Source: Glutinoglossum americanum
Lineage: Eukaryota > Ascomycota > Geoglossomycetes > Geoglossales > Geoglossaceae
Direction: 5' to 3'
DNA length: 60,615 bases
Assembly: GCA_020080175.1 (NCBI GenBank)
Contig: JAGHQL010000168.1
Span: 1 to 60,615, forward strand
The notes under the pieces are model-generated. The model did no database searches, was not told the DNA's origin, and was given only the letters and a program-made list of their open reading frames with translations. This document shows positions 21,070-60,615 of this stretch, one piece after another. Both the position numbers and the translations under genes were made by a program. How positions within the stretch are numbered: the first letter of the stretch is position 1; each line of letters begins with the position of its first letter.

Positions 21070-24000
21070 TTACGCTCTATGCCGCTTGTTACTAAAGATT
21101 TTCGAAAAGAAGCCGCCTATCCAGCCGCCAAACACGGTCCGCCAGAAAGTCTTGAAGATGTTGGAGTGCTTTGGCGCTTTAGTCGACTGTAGTGAATGCG
21201 GCGTTCGTGGGCGGTCACCAGCGTCATTGTCAACATTCCGTTGTCGCAGGCTACCTCCAAGTGCATCTCCACCTGCACGATCCATGCCTCTAGGTTTGGC
21301 TTGAGTTCCTCCACTATCCGCTCCAGTCGATTCGCCAGCGACAACATCGGGAGCCCAGGCTTTTGCAGAATCATGCTCTGGCCCCTTTGTGTATTTGCTC
21401 GACGTAGCTGCTCCTGCAACTATCTCTCCTTGCCCTTGTGCGGGTTCTACCACTGCGTGATCTTGCATGACAAACTGGTGCGCGCTCTCGACCCCTCCTC
21501 TAACAGCATTTGGGTCTGCATTCTGCGAGATGTCAAGTGCTTTGTCCTTTGCACTTGCTTTCACAGTAGAAATAGTGCTCTCAACGAGAACGGCAGTCCC
21601 AATAACCGCTCCGGCGATAAACGTGGTAGTATCCTTCTGTACGCTGATAGTGTTGCTAGCATCTCCGTTAGCGGTACTAACGGTAGTCTCTTGTTCAAGG
21701 GAAATTTTGCGCTTCAGCTCCCCTTCTGCGGGATCTTTAGATGGAATGTTCGTCTCATCTGGAGCGTGAGCTCCGACCTGACTTACTCCTGGCACATCGG
21801 AAGTGGCCCCATGGTGCTCGAGTCCCGCGTTGGCGGCTAACGCAACGGTACTGCTTGTCGGCGTAATAGCGGAGATTATCGCGGTGGTAGCATTCTCTAG
21901 GGTGGCTGGTCCGGACGCTCTTGTAGATTCATCCGAAGTGACATCGCTGCTGATGGACCCTAGTTTTAGTAGAGGTTGGACTTTAGCATCAGTCGTAGTA
22001 TGCACCTTCGCCGCAGGCTCGAGATCGGCTGGTTTGAGATGTAAAGATAGCGATTCGCCAATCGAAGGCGGACTAAAGACATTTTCTTCAGGCAGCGTGG
22101 AGACTTGTGAAACGGGTATATCCTGCTCCGCTTCGGAGGATGCGCCGAAGCTGGCGGTTGCCGATCCCTCTTTCTCGGTCTTTACCGGAGGCGGTAATCC
22201 TCGAGCGAGGCTGAGATCGGTTCCAGGGGGTTCGGCAGATAGGAGGTCATCAGAGCACTCTACCTGAGAAGTTCCATCACCTGGTGGCCCCCTCAATTGA
22301 CCGGCAGCTGCGACAGCTGTGGCATCAGCAGGCACCGCCGAGGCAACCTCCGGTAGGATAGGTGCGTGGGAGGTAGAACTCGGTGCTTCCTCTTCTGGAG
22401 TGACGCTTAAATTAGGTGATCGCTCAATTGGCAGTGAAGGTGGTTGCTCTAGGTCGTTTGATTGGCCACTGATACCATCGCTCAAGAGAGGTGATGGGGG
22501 GCCAGCTATATCGGTGGTTGTGTCGGCGATATCTGGACTCGGACTTGGCCGTTTCCCTTCCGCACATTCTGAACCCGGTGCTGGGCCCTTATCTGGGGGT
22601 AGGTAACTCGATCTCTCTGCCTGCCCATCTGGTTGGATTGCAGTACCTGCGGGCTGCATTAATGCTGTGTCGGTATCTGATATTAGAGCTGAGGGGCCAC
22701 TGGTCGTTGGGGCAGGTTCCGGCTCGACTAATGCCGCACTTGTAGTTGGCGCCAGCTCCCCAAACTCATCCCCATGTTTCACCTCGTCTAAGAGCCTGTC
22801 CTCTATCTCCCTCACAATAGCCCCTCCAAGGTTACTCCTAGCCCCCAGGTCCAGATGGGTCTTATTGATTGACTCTTTGACGACCTCAGGAACTTTAATA
22901 GAATCACCCCCCTTCGTTATCTCTGTCTCAAGGGATTCATTAACATCTGGGGGCTTGACAAGATCTTGTTCCTTTAGCATCTCCGCTTCTGGGGGCCCAT
23001 TGGAGTCGGGCACTTCGGCAAGGTTCTCCACCTCAGTCGCCATCTCAGGGGGTTCGCTAACGTCACCAGGAGCCATAAGGCGTTCCTCCTTTGACATCTT
23101 TATTTCGGGGGACCCATCGGTGACCTTAGGGTCTACAACAAGGCCCTCTTCTTTAGCTATCACTGTGTTAGCGGGTGCGTCAATAGGTACACCGACAGCC
23201 CTACGGATTTCTGCAAGATCCCCCCCCTTAAGCTTCTCCATTCGTGTGATTTCTTCTGTAGTCTGAGGGCCGCCAGCGGACTCGATATCCTTGACCAGTT
23301 CCGTTGTAGGGTCCCCCTCCGCGGAGCCCCCGCTAGCGCCAGCTGCTGGGAATGCAACACCCTTTGTGGTTTCCGTCTGTGGGACCGCAGCAAGTGCAGC
23401 CACTACAGAGGTACCTGCAGCAGCGCCACTAGGAAACATAGCATCTAGGAAATCCTTCTTGGCATCAGCGATATCCACATGGCTCTTACTTTCGCTGTCT
23501 TCGGGCGGTTCAACAGAAACTTCGCCCCTGAGCTCATTCTCAACAGCAGGGATGTGGTCTCCCAGCACAGCTAGTGCGGCTGTTCCCGTTGTTTCATGAA
23601 CTTCAGAGGAATTCTCTGCAATTCCTAGCACTTCGGGAGCAGCTGTCAGGCTCGCTGGAGCTTCCAAGTCTTTTTCGGGTCCGGAGATTGGGTTTTGCGA
23701 TATGTCCGCTTCAACTAGGTCGGGGTCAGAGTGCACTTGGGAGGCACTTTTGCCAGGTACAGGCGGTGCCCTGAACTCATGCAAATGGCCCGCATCTCGC
23801 ACTGGCTCCTTATCACCTGGAATGTGGTTCAGGTTTGCCTGTTCTAAGTTTTCGTGAACCTCTACACCCCACTTCATATCAGCCTGTCGGACGGTTGGGT
23901 TATCGTCACCGCTCACGTCTGGCCCAAATGCCCCGGGGCTGGTCTCCCTCTCGTCAGGTGAGACAACAGTTGTAGTAAGTTCCGCAACTGCCTTAGGCAC

Positions 24001-27000
24001 ACCATCGACACTATTTTCTGCTCCTGTAGTTCTACCTGCCTCCGTAACTTTCGTAGCCTCTGCTGCATCTGCTGTCTCTAGTGTCTCTGGCTGTACGACT
24101 TCCTCTACCTCTGGATATCCCACTGTGCCTGGTGTTGCTTCTGGCTTTGCGGCATCCCCTATGGCTGGAACTCCTACGGATTCAGCTCCCGTGGCTGCCA
24201 CAGTTTCCTCTGGTTCCAGGGTTTTCTCTGCCTCCGAGACTTCAGCTGGGGCTGACTCTGACTCTGCAACTCCCCCTACCACTAGAGTTTCCGCCGGTTT
24301 CGCAACTTCCGTGACCTCTACAGCCTCCTCTATTTCTGGGGCTGCATCCACCTCTAACTCTGCAACTTCCCCTGCCACAAGAGCTTCTGCCGGTTTTGCA
24401 GCTTCGGTGACCTCTACCGCCTCCTCTATTTCCGGGGCCGCATCTGCCTCCGGCTCTGCAACTTCCACTGCAGTTAGAGTTTCCACCGGTCTCTTAGCTA
24501 CCGTGGCCTCCTCTGTTTCCGGGACTGCGTCTACCTCTGTCTCTGTAACTCCCCCTGCCACTGGGGTTTCTAGCGGTTTTGCAGCTTCCATGGCCCCTAC
24601 AGTCTCTGTTTCCGGGACTGCATCTACCTCTGACTCTGTAACTTCCCGTGTCACTAGAGTTTCCGCCGGTTTTGCAACTTCGGTGACCTCTGCAGTCTCC
24701 TCTGTTCCCAGAACTGCATCTGACTCTAGCTCTGTAATCTCCCCCGCCACAAGAGTTTCCGCCAGTTTTGCAGCTTCTGCAACCTCTGCAGTCTCCTCTA
24801 TTCCCAGAGCTACATCTGCCCCCGGCTCTGTAACTCCCATTGCCACTAGAGTTTCCACAGATTTTGCAGTTTTGGTGACCTCTATGGCCTCCTCTGTTTC
24901 TGGGGCTGCATCTGCCTCTAGAATCTCCTCTGCCCCTGGTTCCGTAGCCCCCCCTATCGCTAGAACTTCAGGTGGTTTCACAGCTTCCACAGTTTCTTCT
25001 GCCTCCAGAACTTCCATCTCACCTAGCGCTGCCTCTAGCTCTGCAGTATCCCCTACTACTGGAACTTCCGCCGCTTTTGCAGTTTCCGCAGACGCCACAG
25101 TTTCTTCTACCTCTGAAATTTCCACTGCATCTAGCGCTGCCTGTGGCTCAGCAACTTCCTCTACCGCAAGAGCCTCCGTGGCTTCTACGGTTTCCGCGAC
25201 CGTCCCGGCTTCCTCTGGCTCCAAAGCCTCCGTTGTGCCTGGGGCTGCCTCCGGCTCTGCAACTTCTCCTGCATCAGCAGATTCTGTTGGATTTGCTGCT
25301 TCCGCGACCGCCACTGCCTCTTTCACCTCCAAAGTTTCCGCTGTACCTAGCACCCCCCCTAGCTCTGCTACCACCTCCACCACAGGAACTCCTGCTATTC
25401 CTGGTTCTTTCGCTGTCTCCTCTGTTGGTGTAATTTTCTCCACTTCTGGTGCTTTCACTGGCCCCGCATCCTCCTCTCGCTCTACCAATTTCTCTATCTC
25501 CGGAGCCTCCTCTAGTCCTAGAGTTTCCGCTTTTACCGCAGAGTCCTCTACCACCAGAGCCTCCACGACTTCTGATGGTTTCTCTGGTTCTGCCGCTTTA
25601 GCCATCCCCGGAGCTTCCGCTGTTTCTGGAGCCTTCTCTGCTTTTGGAACATCCCTTGTTAGCATAGCTTCTTCTGACTTTGGAGCTTCCTTTGGTTCCA
25701 GCAACTCAGGTTTTAGAGCAGATGAGCGTTCATCGTTCTTGGTAATCGTTCCCGCAGTAACTAAGCTAGATCTACTCTCTTGTTCTGGGGAAATCAAAAT
25801 CTCGTCGGGCTCCATATCCGCTGCTCGTTTCTCATTTGCCAACTTCTGAGCATAGCTGCTGTCAACTCCATAACCCTCGTCATAGTTTGGCTTGTCATCA
25901 GTTTTTTCCACGACTGGTAAAGGGACAGATATCGGCTCGCTAGCTTGCACTGGTGCCTCTTCCTCGCTGGGCTGTGGCTGTCCGGGGTTGACGACCTGGT
26001 CGAGCTCGGAGTCTGCCTGGCGATTCTCGACTACTTCTCGAAGGTTCCTAGCGTCATCAACAGCATCTCCTCTGCAGGTCGGCTGTTCGTTGTCCGGTAT
26101 TTTATCCACGACGGTAAGGGGAATTGGTATCTCTTCTTTGAAGTCAGGTATTTCTGTGGATGCAGGTTCCTTGGTGGCAGAACTGCCTTCTATCAATGCA
26201 GGCCCATCGCCGCTGTTGAAAATTTTCGTGAACTCGTCAATGCTTTCCTCCACGGGTTGGATCGGGAAGACATCGTATCCGGCCAAGGAATCGGGTGCTT
26301 TCTGTTCTTTAAAAAATGGCGTTAATGGCGTTAATGGCTTCATAATCTGCTGCTCAACTCCTGCTTGTTCCCCAGCTTCCACTAGAGGTTGTTCCTCGAT
26401 ATGACCATTCGGAACGCGGCTGTTTTGTTCTTGGGATATCTCGGGAACCTCACCATTCTCGCTGACACCCAATATGTTCTGATGGTGATCTCCGCTCGGA
26501 GCCTGTCCGCTTTCCTGAACGCCCACCAGCTCCCCACCTTTGTGTTCGTGGCCTGGAAGAATCAAGTTGGTCTTATCCTCTACATCTTGTGGAACAATTT
26601 TGTCACGCTCCTTCAAGACTATTACTTCTGCTTGTGGCGGTATGATGTCAGGCTCAGAGAGCTTGACAGGCAGATCTTCAGGGTTTGTAGGCTCCTTTAC
26701 GTCGGTACTACCGCTGCTGTGAGGGCCGGATGGCTCCAGCACACCAGGAGCTTCGCTGGGGACAGTCGTGGCCGTGGTTTCAGGTGGGGCCATATGTTCT
26801 GGGGCCTGACCAGTGCTACTCTTTTGGACAAACAAAGAATTGACTCGATTGCCGTCACCATCGATCACTGGAATTAGAGTTAGAATTGCGGTACATGGTT
26901 AGCCGTTAGATAAATAATAGTAACAATACCTGTTGCCGTGTTTTCATCCAGTACCCACAAATCTCCTTCCCCAACTCTGAACTTATATTGCCAATGGCCT

Positions 27001-55340: not shown

Positions 55341-56838
55341 TCACCTGTGGCCTCCTTCTGGGACAATGGCAGTATTCGTTGCCCCTTGATGCGGGTTGGG
55401 ATAGAACCATGCGGAAATCGCTACTATAATGTATACGATTACACAAAGAGCTCCTTCCAGGTAGTTCGTCTTACCGTCTCTCAGGAAATTACCAACGACG
55501 ATGATGGCCAGAATGAGAATAACGATCATGAAAATCTCGAAGTTCAAGTCCATCGGCTTGTGAAGGCCCCAACCGACGATAACAGCGATAGGGGCGACCA
55601 GTAGTGCGGTCTGAATTGCTGAGCCGAGAATATGTGACAGAGCAAAGTTCATTTGGTTGTCCCAGGCTTCATCCAACGCCGTAAGATGCTCTGCCGCTTT
55701 TTCGACCAGGGGAACCAAGATCAGACCCATGAACGGGTCGCTGACATGCCGGTCTTCGACTATGAAGGCTATTTGCTCAACAAGGAACACCGCGTGCAAA
55801 GAGACACAGGTAAGAGATACAGCGAGGGCGACAACGCATTCCGTTAGCGTAAGCTTCTCCTTGGTAAGGTCTTTGTGCCGATCAGCATCATTTTCTTCAT
55901 CCCGAGTAAGAATCTGGTCGAAAATGGAATGGTGAGTCCGCAGCTGGAACCACACAAATCTAGTCAAGTCAGTGATTATAGGTCGAGTGGCCAAAATCAA
56001 TGTGCTCGCTCACATGAGATATGCAATCAATAGAAATATAGAGGTGGCACGGCTAATTGTCAGAACCCTTGATTGTAGGAGGCCTTCCTCCACAACGCCT
56101 TTTAAGGCCGTGAAAAATGCCGAAGGAACCATAAGCCCCAACCCAGCAACTAAAAGTAATCCGCTGCCAGCTTCACTAACGTGTTCGTCAAAGTGTGTGA
56201 TTTCACGCCGAATGCCGCCAGCGAAGAAGCATGCCCCTAGGCAAAGTAAAAGATTGGCTAAAATAGACCCCAGAATGGCAGCTTGGATGACCACGATCTG
56301 GTCCTTTCGTAACAGGACCATGATGAGGATGATCTCGACGACCGACGCAAGCGTCAGTTCAAGAATCAATCCTATCACTTTGGGGATCTTTCGAGCCAAC
56401 TCTTGGCCTGCAAAGCCGACTAGATTCGCGGTTGGAACCATGGCGATGTAATTAAGAACGAATATCCATAAGTGAAGATCTGGCCGCGCAAAATGCTATA
56501 GTCAAATACTTATCAATACGGACCTTAGATACATTATAGCCGCGAACAAACGAACTTACTATCGCAATAGCAGCCGGCACGAACGGCCAAAGAACATTCA
56601 CCGCGGCTGACACTCTGCTAGTGCTTCGGAGGCATATTTTTACGAATCGCAATGGCGAGATCCAGCTTCTGCCGCTCTCGCCATCCGGATTGATTCCTTT
56701 CGTAAATGGGAGGCCATTGTGGTTGTACGAAGGTAGAAACCTACGATGTGTTTGAGGAGCAGGGGTAGTTTCAGATTCGTCTTTTCGTTCAGCGGATTCG
56801 ACGTTCGATTCGGCTTGGGTACGACGGAATATTGCCAT
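55341..56838 (-). CDS. Ca2+/H+ exchanger-like (CAX family) membrane protein
   Basis: A 459-residue multi-pass protein of the calcium/cation exchanger family, expected in the vacuole. Exons: 56838-56560, 56495-56014 and 55959-55341. About 75 cytosolic residues precede the first helix. Helices include LWIFVLNYIAMVPTANLVGF, ILGSILANLLLCLGACFFAGG and ILGSAIQTALLVAPIAVIVGW. The two alpha-repeat motifs, normally GNAVE and GNAAEH, read ASVVE and EKAAEH: the glutamates are present but the Gly-Asn pairs are not. A His-rich or acidic loop (DEENDADRHKDLT) sits between halves. It ends EGGHR. The missing Asn residues mark it as a divergent CAX paralogue, so transport specificity is uncertain. The 340 bp to the left, up to the coiled-coil gene start, hold no gene. 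Confidence 0.88.
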
Positions 56839-57748
56839 GGTTCTCAAGTGCAGCAAAAAAGAACAATTATACAAGGAGCATCCGTCACCATAAAGTCATG
56901 ACTGCCAGCACGTTGCGTAGGAAGGTTATAAGTAGTGTTGGTGGGTGCGAGGAGCAAACCAATGAATAGGAGATGAAATCTGACGCGCCAAGAGGAAGTG
57001 AACCATTAAAAACAAACTTATGCGCTCAACATAATTCGCGAAAACATCAGCGCCCCCGGGGCCAAACCATAGAGCACCAAATCAAGCGTGTTTGCCAATG
57101 CGCTTGGCCGCTTGGCTCCATGCACCGAGCAGAATCCATGAATATGTGTAAGCGAGGCCGAATGGTGAAGAGAATGATGAATTCAGCCAATCCTGGAAAT
57201 ACACGGGTACAAGATTCTGGGGTTAGCGACTGGGCAGTCCAGTTTGAAACTCCAAAACGAGCAGTCAAAAGTCTTCGCACACCGACCACAAGGGTTGCTA
57301 CCGAAGTTATGTCAGCAGTCGCCTAAATTTTTAGCGAGAATACACTTAAATTTTTCGCGGTCAACACCCGCAGCAGCCTCGCGGTCCCACAGCCAGAAAT
57401 AGGAGTACTTTATTATATAATCTTACGATTTAAGCATAAGTACTAGCTCTTTTAAAGGCTAAAATTTCTAATTTTTTAGTTTTAGTATTTAGGATATTTT
57501 AAATAAAACTTATAGAAATTAATATATTTTATTATTTTAATTTTTTATATTATAAATAAGTTATTTTTAAACTATAAAGGATGATACTAAATATAATAGC
57601 TACTTATATAAACTAGGCTACAAAGGTCTGAGTATCATAGGCGTCAGGGCCAAGCTAGCCCTAAAGGGTCAGTTACGAAGGAGTAAAAGAAGTCAGTCAT
57701 ATGATGTGATAAAAAAAGTAGTTTATTAGTCTTAATAATCTATTTAGA
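56839..57748. other. gene-free region grading into AT-rich DNA
   Basis: The left part is the exchanger promoter side, where an unsupported 117-codon frame lies at 56973-57326. From about 57420 to 57620 the sequence becomes extremely AT-rich, with stretches almost free of G and C. This is the border between host genes and the repeat block, and the AT bias fits RIP-affected DNA. Confidence 0.6.
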
Positions 57749-58220
57749 TGTCATGACCCGTAGTCGGTTACCCAGCGAGGCTATTTAGGCCTCTGTGGCT
57801 AGGTAACTAGCTTGGGTTACGCAAATGGCGACTCACCTATATAGCTATATAAATTCCGCAAGTGTACATCCTTATTACTTTATGACGTCTATTCTATTAT
57901 TGAATGCCCGTCGTATATATAAGCGGCTTGCTGGCCTCCTGCTGAAAGTTAGTGATCAGTTCTTCTACATCTCCTGCTCATTAGAATCAAGTCTATTTCA
58001 TCTACTCTACATTCTAAACCGAGCCGACGTCAAGTCGCTCTAAACCACTGACCATCAAGTCTATCTATTAGTCCTCGTACATTTAGGCCTTACCTAGATG
58101 CAGACCAGTTGGCCAACCATCATCATCGCTACGAGGTGTGACATCACACTGTTATCAAACCCCCTAAACCCCTTGACGTCGGAGTGCTTTCATGTCGCCT
58201 TGGCATCGAGAGTTCTTACA
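57749..58220 (+). mobile_element. fossil solo LTR, family E, copy 1
   Basis: A 472-bp repeat that starts TGTCATGACC and ends GAGTTCTTACA (TG...CA ends typical of LTRs), with a TATATAAA-like box inside. It is the inverted relative of 59746-60378 and lacks about 160 bp that copy 2 has near its right part. The differences between copies are mostly transitions, as from RIP. Flanking 5-mers are TTAGA on the left and AGGCT on the right, which do not match each other. No internal retrotransposon genes are present. Probably old, though RIP makes divergence a poor clock. Confidence 0.8.
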
Positions 58221-58845
58221 AGGCTCATGAGCAAGTTTCCAAGCTTGAATGGATGTCATAGTTTAGTAAGAGGTCTAATGAGATATCAGATGTCACAATG
58301 TACAGAGCCGTAAGGGGCAGAGCTCATGAGCTTAAACTAATATGTAGTCTGTGCTCAAGTCAAACCTGCAAGCCTTTTTTCCAACCAATGAAGTTAACCT
58401 TTCAATCTCTATCGGTCAACACACCTCTTATATATAGTTCATCTAATAGAAGCCATCCGGTGGCCCTATATCTATTCTCCTACTCAGCCTATCTACTTCT
58501 AATATCCTACTGAACTTCTTGTCAAGCTGTGCTACCTATTCGAGCTCAAGAACTTATTCATAAGTCTACAGATAATCTCCTGAATGATTCCCTTGAGCTT
58601 TGAGTGTCTGTAGCACTCCCTTAGGACCTGACATTAAAGGTAAATAAGCTGAAAAAAAGGATGGATATGTGGTTACCAGGTGGCCTCTATTAGATGAACT
58701 ATATACAAGAGATATATTGACTGATAGAAGTTGAAAAATCAACTCTGTCAGTCAGAAAAGGAGCTTAAGAGTTTGACTTAAGTATAGACTCTATACTGAT
58801 TTAAGCTTACAAGCCCTGTTTCTTATAGTTTTATATACTGTGATA
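58221..58845 (+). mobile_element. fossil LTR, family A, interrupted copy
   Basis: Sequence at 58221-58290 and 58634-58845 reads as one family A LTR in + orientation, split by the insertion of another family A copy (58291-58633) in the opposite orientation. Its missing left end matches 60379-60436, across a second family E copy. Divergence from the other copies is mainly transitions. Non-coding. Confidence 0.75.
58291..58633 (-). mobile_element. fossil solo LTR, family A, nested insertion
   Basis: A 343-bp element with inverted ends TGTCA...TGACA and a TATATATAAG box on the minus strand. It is flanked by 5-mers TCAGA (58286-58290) and TTAAA (58634-58638), which differ by two transitions and so look like a mutated 5-bp target-site duplication. 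Removing the element and one 5-mer restores continuity of the older family A copy. Non-coding solo LTR. Confidence 0.8.
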
Positions 58846-59138
58846 ATAAAATACTTGCTTAACTAAAATTTAGTTAAGAGTCTTAAAACTTTTAGTATTA
58901 TGGTAACTGATGAGTAAGACTCCGGCCAGCTACCGAACAAGTTAGAAAGGAGGGCTAGCTTTAAGGAAGGCTAGTAGGGTATAGGAAGAGCCATCCTTAT
59001 ATATAATATACTAAGCTGACAATATATGAGCAGGGTCCTGTAAAGCTTTACTAACGATATTATAAAAAACTCAATATGAAAGTATAGATAGCTATGAGAG
59101 GACCATATACTAACAAACATCATAAGAAACTTCACATG

Positions 59139-59469
59139 TATCACAGCATATAAAGTTACAAGAGACAGAGTTTGTGAGTTTAGATCAGTATAAGGTCTAT
59201 ATTTAAGTCAAGTTTTCAAGTTTTTTTTCTGACTGATAGAGTTAATTCTTCAACCTCTATCGATCAACATATTTCTTATATATAGTTCATCTAATAGAAG
59301 TCATCTGGTAGTTCTATATCTATCTTCCTCCTCAGCCCATCTACCTCTGATATCTTATTGAACCTCCTGTTAAACTATGATACCTATTCAAGCTCAGAAA
59401 CTCACTTGCGAACTTATAAACAACCTTTATAAATCTCAAGCACCCATGATACCCTCCTAGGATCTGACA
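59139..59469 (-). mobile_element. fossil solo LTR, family A, second copy
   Basis: A 331-bp direct repeat of 58291-58633. It is flanked by ACATG (59134-59138) and ATATG (59470-59474), which differ by one transition and fit a 5-bp target-site duplication. It is more AT-rich than the first copy, consistent with heavier RIP. Sequence on both sides contains short related units around GAAAGTATAG (near 59080, 59480 and 59530). Non-coding. Confidence 0.8.
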
Positions 59470-59745
59470 ATATGGGAGTATAGTTAGCGAAGAAGAAACT
59501 ACATCTGTATTATAAGGAATTCTATCTGAAAGTATAGTCAGTAGTGAAGAAACCATATATAGATATAAGTAAAAAATATTAGTTAAGGAGTCTGTATAAA
59601 GCTGATTAGTAACTAAGTTATTAGTCAATAATAGGAGAGCTGGGTGAGTACCAACCTTTAAGTCCTTTAAGGCTATTGATATATATAGAAGACTAAGAAG
59701 AGTATAGAAAGGAACCTTATTAGTTAATACCTATAACTTACCTAA

Positions 59746-60378
59746 TGTAAGAACTCTTGATGCCAAGGCAATACGAAGGTACTCTGACGTTATGGAGGTG
59801 GGATCCATGCCCAGATAGGGGCAATCTGTTGAGGTTGAGGTTACGTGAATTTGTGATTCTCTTGGCAGAGGCACGCATATAAGTAGCTAGCTAGACATGT
59901 AGTTATGAACAAGCAGCTCACTCACTGACACTGAAATTGCCTCCACAACGTCGAAGGGTCTAGGGGGTTCGATAACAGTGTAACGTCGCATCCTGCGACG
60001 ATGATGATGGTTGGCCGACTGGTCTGCATCTAGGTAAGGCCTAGATGTATGAGGACTAATGGATGGACTTGATAGTTGATGGTTTAGAGCGACTTGACAT
60101 CGGCCCAGTTTAGAATATAGAGTAGACGGAATAGACTTGATTCTAATGAGCAGGAGATATAGAAGAACTGATCGTTAACCTCCAGCGGGAGGCCAGCAAG
60201 CTGCTTATATACATGATGGGTATTCAACAATAGAACAGACGTCATAAAGCAATAAGGATGTACGCTTGCGGAATCTATATAGCCATATAAGTGAGTCGCC
60301 GTTTGCGTAACCCGAGCTAGTTACTCAGCTGCAGAGGCCTAAATAGCCTCACCGAGTAACCAACTGCAGGTCATAACA
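59746..60378 (-). mobile_element. fossil solo LTR, family E, copy 2
   Basis: A 633-bp inverted copy of 57749-58220, longer by about 160 bp and so probably closer to the full length. Read on the minus strand it begins TGTTATGACC and ends TTCTTACA. In that orientation its 5-bp flanks are AGGCT (outer) and TTAGG (inner), which are swapped relative to those of copy 1. No internal genes. About nine in ten positions agree with copy 1 by eye, differences mostly transitions. Confidence 0.8.
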
Positions 60379-60436
60379 AGCCTACAAACAACCTCTCTGA
60401 ATCTCGAACACTCATGATACCCCTCTAGAACTTAAC
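60379..60436 (-). mobile_element. fossil LTR fragment, family A terminal part
   Basis: These 58 bp match the terminal part of family A (the end with CTAGGATCTGACA in the other copies). It begins right at the end of family E copy 2. Together with 58221-58845 it would make one nearly complete LTR that was split by the family E insertion and then moved apart. The rest of the window to 60615 is AT-rich with nothing further recognised. Confidence 0.65.
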
Positions 60437-60615
60437 ATCTATCAACTTTACTTAAAATACTTAGTTACTCAATTTTAATATCTTTTCATATGCAAGTACT
60501 TATACTTTTTAAAGAAGATATTAACGTCGCTTATCAGTAAGTGGTGAATATCACTGAGCAGTGAACTTTTCGTGATCCTCAGACTTTCTAATTACTACAT
60601 TCGGCCTAGCTTTTC

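Follow-up and report, generated by a model that had tools for sequence, protein, structure and literature searches.

Near the right-hand end of a stretch of 60,615 nucleotides (hereafter the window) from contig JAGHQL010000168.1 of Glutinoglossum americanum (assembly GCA_020080175.1), a segment of 1,525 base pairs (bp) lies between two inverted copies, E1 and E2, of a repeat that resembles the long terminal repeat (LTR) of a retrotransposon. As far as can be read from this single sequence, the arrangement shows that the number of inversions of the segment (58221-59745) is odd and that E contains both breakpoints. Given this position of the breakpoints, recombination between the two inverted copies offers the plainest account, and we put the probability of the full explanation, a crossover between these copies that flipped the segment, at about 0.88. 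The initial annotation had proposed an inversion of roughly 1.5 kb at this place. The exchanged flanks of the E copies, the restored contiguity of an element of a second family and a third target-site duplication all support that proposal.

Target-site duplications are exchanged between two LTR-like repeats

E1 (472 bp) and E2 (633 bp) share 86% identity across 472 aligned positions, and their longest stretch without a difference is 29 bp. Their homology starts at 57749 in E1 and 60378 in E2 and stops at 58220 and 59746, with TG...CA at both ends, and these borders agree with the ends given in the initial annotation. As the homology itself stops there, the ends were not picked to fit the flanks. 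Both copies contain the TATA box TATATAA (at 57916 in E1), and the inverted ends of E share only their first 3 bases. Judged by non-coding marks (TG...CA ends, 5-bp duplications and a TATA box), E looks like an LTR.

The four flanking 5-mers, TTAGA and AGGCT for E1 and, in the same reading orientation, AGGCT and TTAGG for E2, were reread to the base and are as first described. In the present order, the flanks match at 0 of 5 positions for E1 and at 0 of 5 for E2. With the flip undone, E1 is flanked by TTAGA/TTAGG (4 of 5, the mismatch being one transition) and E2 by AGGCT/AGGCT (5 of 5), which is the crosswise correspondence that had been claimed.

Undoing the flip restores a family A element to the base

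The inverted segment and its right-hand neighbourhood also contain members of a second LTR-like family, family A (331-343 bp, TGTCAG...TGTGAYA). The ends of its copies were placed by eye at these motifs and then checked by aligning the copies over their full length; outside the ends, the copies disagree in sequence. The TATA box reads ACTATATATAAG in the copies a1 and a3 and ACTATATACAAG in the copy A-alpha, and the terminal CA reads TA, one transition away, in a3 and A-alpha. A-alpha is interrupted by two inserts, E2 and a1 (343 bp), while a3 is uninterrupted (331 bp) and served as the reference.

In order to rebuild A-alpha, 58221-59745 was unflipped, and E2 and a1 were dropped, each together with one target-site copy. 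The rebuilt element is 331 bp long and aligns with the 331 bp of a3 without any gap (254 matches, 75 transitions and 2 transversions). The three pieces contribute 41 of 54, 52 of 70 and 161 of 207 matches, and the two brought together at the E2 site have precisely the 5-base duplication as their overlap. The present neighbours of these pieces match a3 at 24 or 20 of 54 positions and at 14 of 70, like unrelated sequence. We also looked for other placements of the 70-base middle piece of a3, which matches at 52 positions at 58221. Within 57300-60500, better places were found only in a3 itself, A-alpha and a1, and the best place outside family A gave 33 matches. The expectation that the family A pieces at 58221 and 60379 become contiguous once unflipped thus holds to the base, and it is this collinearity of the unflipped A-alpha with a3 that makes the inversion decisive. 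The joined A-alpha was itself among the three rows of a profile search for family A, and that search is therefore not independent support.

The flanks of A-alpha itself form a third exchanged pair, which the initial annotation did not mention. ATAGA and ATAAA come together as a pair around A-alpha only with the flip undone.

Chance matches and an internal control

For random pairs of 5-mers from 57400-60615, the probability of an exact match is 0.0019, that of a match with at most one transition 0.0081, and that of a match with at most two transitions 0.018. The pattern of the E pair was not found in 20,000 random draws with fixed boundaries; it was found in 0.1% of draws with 1 base of freedom and in 0.46% with 2 bases. 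The E 5-mers alone, with ends freely chosen, are therefore suggestive only. The joint chance of all three duplications is about 1.3e-7, if they are taken as independent and with fixed boundaries.

The segment also carries its own control. The elements that border it or extend across its edges (E1, E2 and A-alpha) have matching flanks only with the flip undone. The two elements that lie wholly inside it match in place: a3 with ACATG (59134-59138) and ATATG (59470-59474), 4 of 5, and a1 more weakly with TCAGA (58286-58290) and TTAAA (58634-58638), 3 of 5, both misses being transitions (the two-transition case above). The five elements thus agree at 5, 4, 4, 4 and 3 of 5 positions. When all 120 pairings of the five 5' flanks with the five 3' flanks were scored, the unflipped arrangement alone was best with 22.5, the next two scored 20.5, and the present order scored 14.0.

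Other origins of the exchanged flanks

The alternative that survives best accepts the inversion and assigns it to one step together with the second E insertion, through aberrant or hybrid-element integration or through replicative intramolecular transposition. Such an origin gives the same flank pattern, replicative intramolecular transposition included. We nevertheless regard a one-step origin as unlikely, since E, with its LTR marks and inverted ends of only 3 bases, looks like an LTR, and LTR integrases are not known to insert and invert in one step; two ordinary insertions and one crossover require nothing unusual. A bacterial-type replicative inversion was set aside, as E has no long inverted ends and its 472-633 bp leave too little room for a transposase of the usual size. 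In the form that would apply to an LTR retrotransposon, the inversion would have arisen in the same event as the second insertion of E, with an integration complex that used ends or targets crosswise, and we give this slightly less credit than the one-step class as a whole. By analogy with hybrid-element transposition of DNA transposons, crosswise integration would give inverted copies with exchanged duplications directly. As set out in a study of the Galileo element, a hybrid insertion in which two copies at a single site take part has a strikingly similar outcome, with copies that are identical and not chimeric (PMC2775673).

A misassembly that joined both E copies crosswise is less likely again. 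It is favoured by the inverted orientation of the two copies, inverted repeats being a classic site of misjoins. Against it, copies at 86% identity with no identical run above 29 bp are clearly different ones to confuse, and 56500-60615 contains no N.

Coincidence, by which two E copies would have lost their matching flanks through point mutation or truncation, could draw on the 0.46% of draws for the E pattern alone, but it is contradicted by the alignment of A-alpha with a3, collinear to the base, together with the third restored duplication and the joint chance given above, and we consider it the most remote of all.

Several observations weigh against a crossover between the E copies or limit it. 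The present identity of E1 and E2 is poor for a crossover, so that an earlier date has to be supposed. The account draws on a single sequence with two E copies. The E1 site has no paralogue in the window, so that the check at this site covered the 5-mer: the left flank of E1 together with the adjoining inner sequence has only weak AT-rich matches there, and the 52-bp repeat described below. The initial annotation had also suggested aligning the E copies in order to find a recombination breakpoint. This was done and none was located; a change-point test on which of the two copies holds T/A at each of the 66 sites where they differ gave no signal (p = 0.81).

Proposed history and decay of the copies

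The crossover between E1 and E2 can be placed in a tentative order of events. A-alpha settled at a target ATARA and predates both a1 and E2, which inserted into it. E1 would have inserted in the opposite orientation to E2, at a TTAGR site to the left of A-alpha. A homologous crossover between the inverted E copies would then have flipped everything between them, an odd number of times, so that each E would keep one flank of its own target and gain one that belonged to the other E. Insertion of a1 and a3 may precede or follow the flip. C-to-T decay, by repeat-induced point mutation (RIP) and/or deamination of methylated cytosine, has eroded the copies. A crossover needs high identity, and the flip therefore probably occurred before most of the decay. 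We infer both the crossover as the route and this timing, for copies that may at that time have been solo LTRs or full-length elements.

Where copies differ, they do so almost always by transitions. E1 and E2 differ by transitions at 66 of 66 sites, with the T/A state in E1 at 35 sites and in E2 at 31. Transitions make up 75 of 77 differences between A-alpha and a3, and 98 of 103 between a1 and a3 (12 gap columns aside). The contexts of the 66 E differences are CG in 28 cases, CA in 21, CT in 12 and CC in 5, against a background of 505 C residues with CG at 92, CA at 142, CT at 163 and CC at 108. In a survey of fungal elements, CpA and CpT biases are tied to RIP and CpG bias to methylation and deamination (PMC4352252). 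The decay of E thus appears RIP-like with a lead of CpG, and because CpG leads, deamination of methylated cytosine is also a fitting explanation.

Features of the repeat island and the remaining window

The coordinates of all elements and flanks are collected in Table 1.

Table 1. Repeats, flanking 5-mers and inverted segment in the window
Feature	Positions	Strand	Basis or location
TTAGA, outer flank of E1, half of the E1 target-site duplication	57744..57748	+	read from sequence
E1, solo LTR-like repeat of 472 bp (TGTCA...TTACA); contains the left inversion breakpoint	57749..58220	+	
Inverted segment, 1525 bp	58221..59745	.	exchanged flanks and A-alpha contiguity
AGGCT, half of the E2 target-site duplication, start of A-alpha middle part	58221..58225	+	
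A-alpha, middle part (includes AGGCT)	58221..58290	+	
a1, family A LTR-like repeat, 343 bp, nested in A-alpha	58291..58633	-	
A-alpha, 3' part; includes the second a1 target-site copy (58634-58638)	58634..58845	+	
ATAAA, 3' half of A-alpha's own duplication	58846..58850	+	
a3, uninterrupted family A LTR-like repeat, 331 bp, reference for A-alpha	59139..59469	-	
CCTAA (reverse complement TTAGG), other half of the E1 duplication	59741..59745	+	
E2, solo LTR-like repeat of 633 bp in the orientation opposite to E1; contains the right inversion breakpoint	59746..60378	-	
Block in E2 absent from E1, 161 bp	59787..59947	-	E1/E2 comparison
AGCCT (reverse complement AGGCT), other half of the E2 duplication	60379..60383	.	
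A-alpha, 5' part (includes AGCCT)	60379..60437	-	beyond E2
TCTAT (reverse complement ATAGA), 5' half of A-alpha's own duplication	60438..60442	+	

E2 exceeds E1 in length by the single 161-bp block. ACGT is found on either side of the block, and its 8-bp inverted ends are one transition apart (TGTGGAGG versus TATGGAGG). Inverted ends like these occur in 0.08% of random placements, in a test that was picked post hoc. The block may be a small non-autonomous element inserted in E2 with a 4-bp duplication, or it may reflect a deletion from E1 at microhomology; it has no bearing on the inversion.

Two further features were seen in the island. A direct repeat of 52 bp (59058-59109 and 59508-59559, 73% identical), assigned to neither E nor A, flanks a3. 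At the left edge of the island, 57403-57748 is very AT-rich (24% G+C), with weak inverted self-similarity.

G+C content is about 50% across the first 57.3 kb of the window and falls from about 57403, in the part that holds the repeats, to 24-46% depending on the segment. Genes divided among adjacent frames, as by introns, point to a fungal origin. Pfam domains were recognised in 9 of the 10 stop-to-stop frames tried, including a lambda-type DNA polymerase, a PHD finger, an aminopeptidase P, two halves of a cation exchanger, and a pyridoxal-phosphate-dependent enzyme followed by a CBS domain. A frame of 1942 amino acids (21070-26898, minus strand) contains repeats at spacings of 96 and 108 bp, located within 24082-25299. 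The tenth frame tried with Pfam, which lies in the flipped segment and overlaps a3 (129 amino acids, 59344-59730, minus strand), gave no match; it was the one scanned among 27 frames of at least 35 amino acids in 57300-60615. Across the window, Rfam gave no match at the gathering threshold and a tRNA scan found none. No gene was shown to be affected by the inversion. The repeat island is probably a graveyard of decayed fungal LTR retrotransposons. A 21-base E pattern had no match in viral and prokaryotic contigs and a 19-base A pattern none in viral contigs, such collections being uninformative here.

Comparison with known inversions

It is well established that exchanged duplications mark inversions made by ectopic recombination. 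The Galileo study (PMC2775673) describes inversion 2z3 of Drosophila buzzatii, in which, as here, copies in opposite orientation lie at the breakpoints with exchanged duplications, and other elements nested there keep their own matching duplications. Unlike here, a sequence of the non-inverted arrangement was obtained for 2z3 and the chimeric nature of the copies was demonstrated, which excluded hybrid-element insertion, the rival named in that study. The present case differs also in its LTR-like repeats, 5-bp duplications, length of 1.5 kb and single sequence.

Fungal LTR elements with unlike flanks are known from Mycosphaerella fijiensis, where such flanks were read as ectopic recombination and insertion sites are most commonly 5 bp long (PMC3562529). 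The 125 elements with unlike flanks were counted and set aside there, and the sections accessible to us contain no pairing of partners or reconstruction of a single inversion. Mismatched duplications likewise mark recombination between LTR elements in the chimeric CR elements of maize centromere 10 (PMC4806543); in this plant case, again from partial text, inversions were deduced from synteny and dated by insertions, and not from paired exchanged duplications. Among the titles and abstract openings surveyed, we noticed no study of a fungus in which the flanks of two solo LTRs are paired to reconstruct a single inversion, and we do not claim that none exists.

Inversion between inverted copies of an element is a well-known kind of event, and although this instance is new, the event itself is ordinary. 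It provides a short example between LTR-like repeats that is exact to the base, carries its own control and is legible from one sequence at 86% identity. This suggests that exchanged duplications, with transitions tolerated and a nested paralogue as a ruler, may reveal old inversions in RIP-affected genomes.
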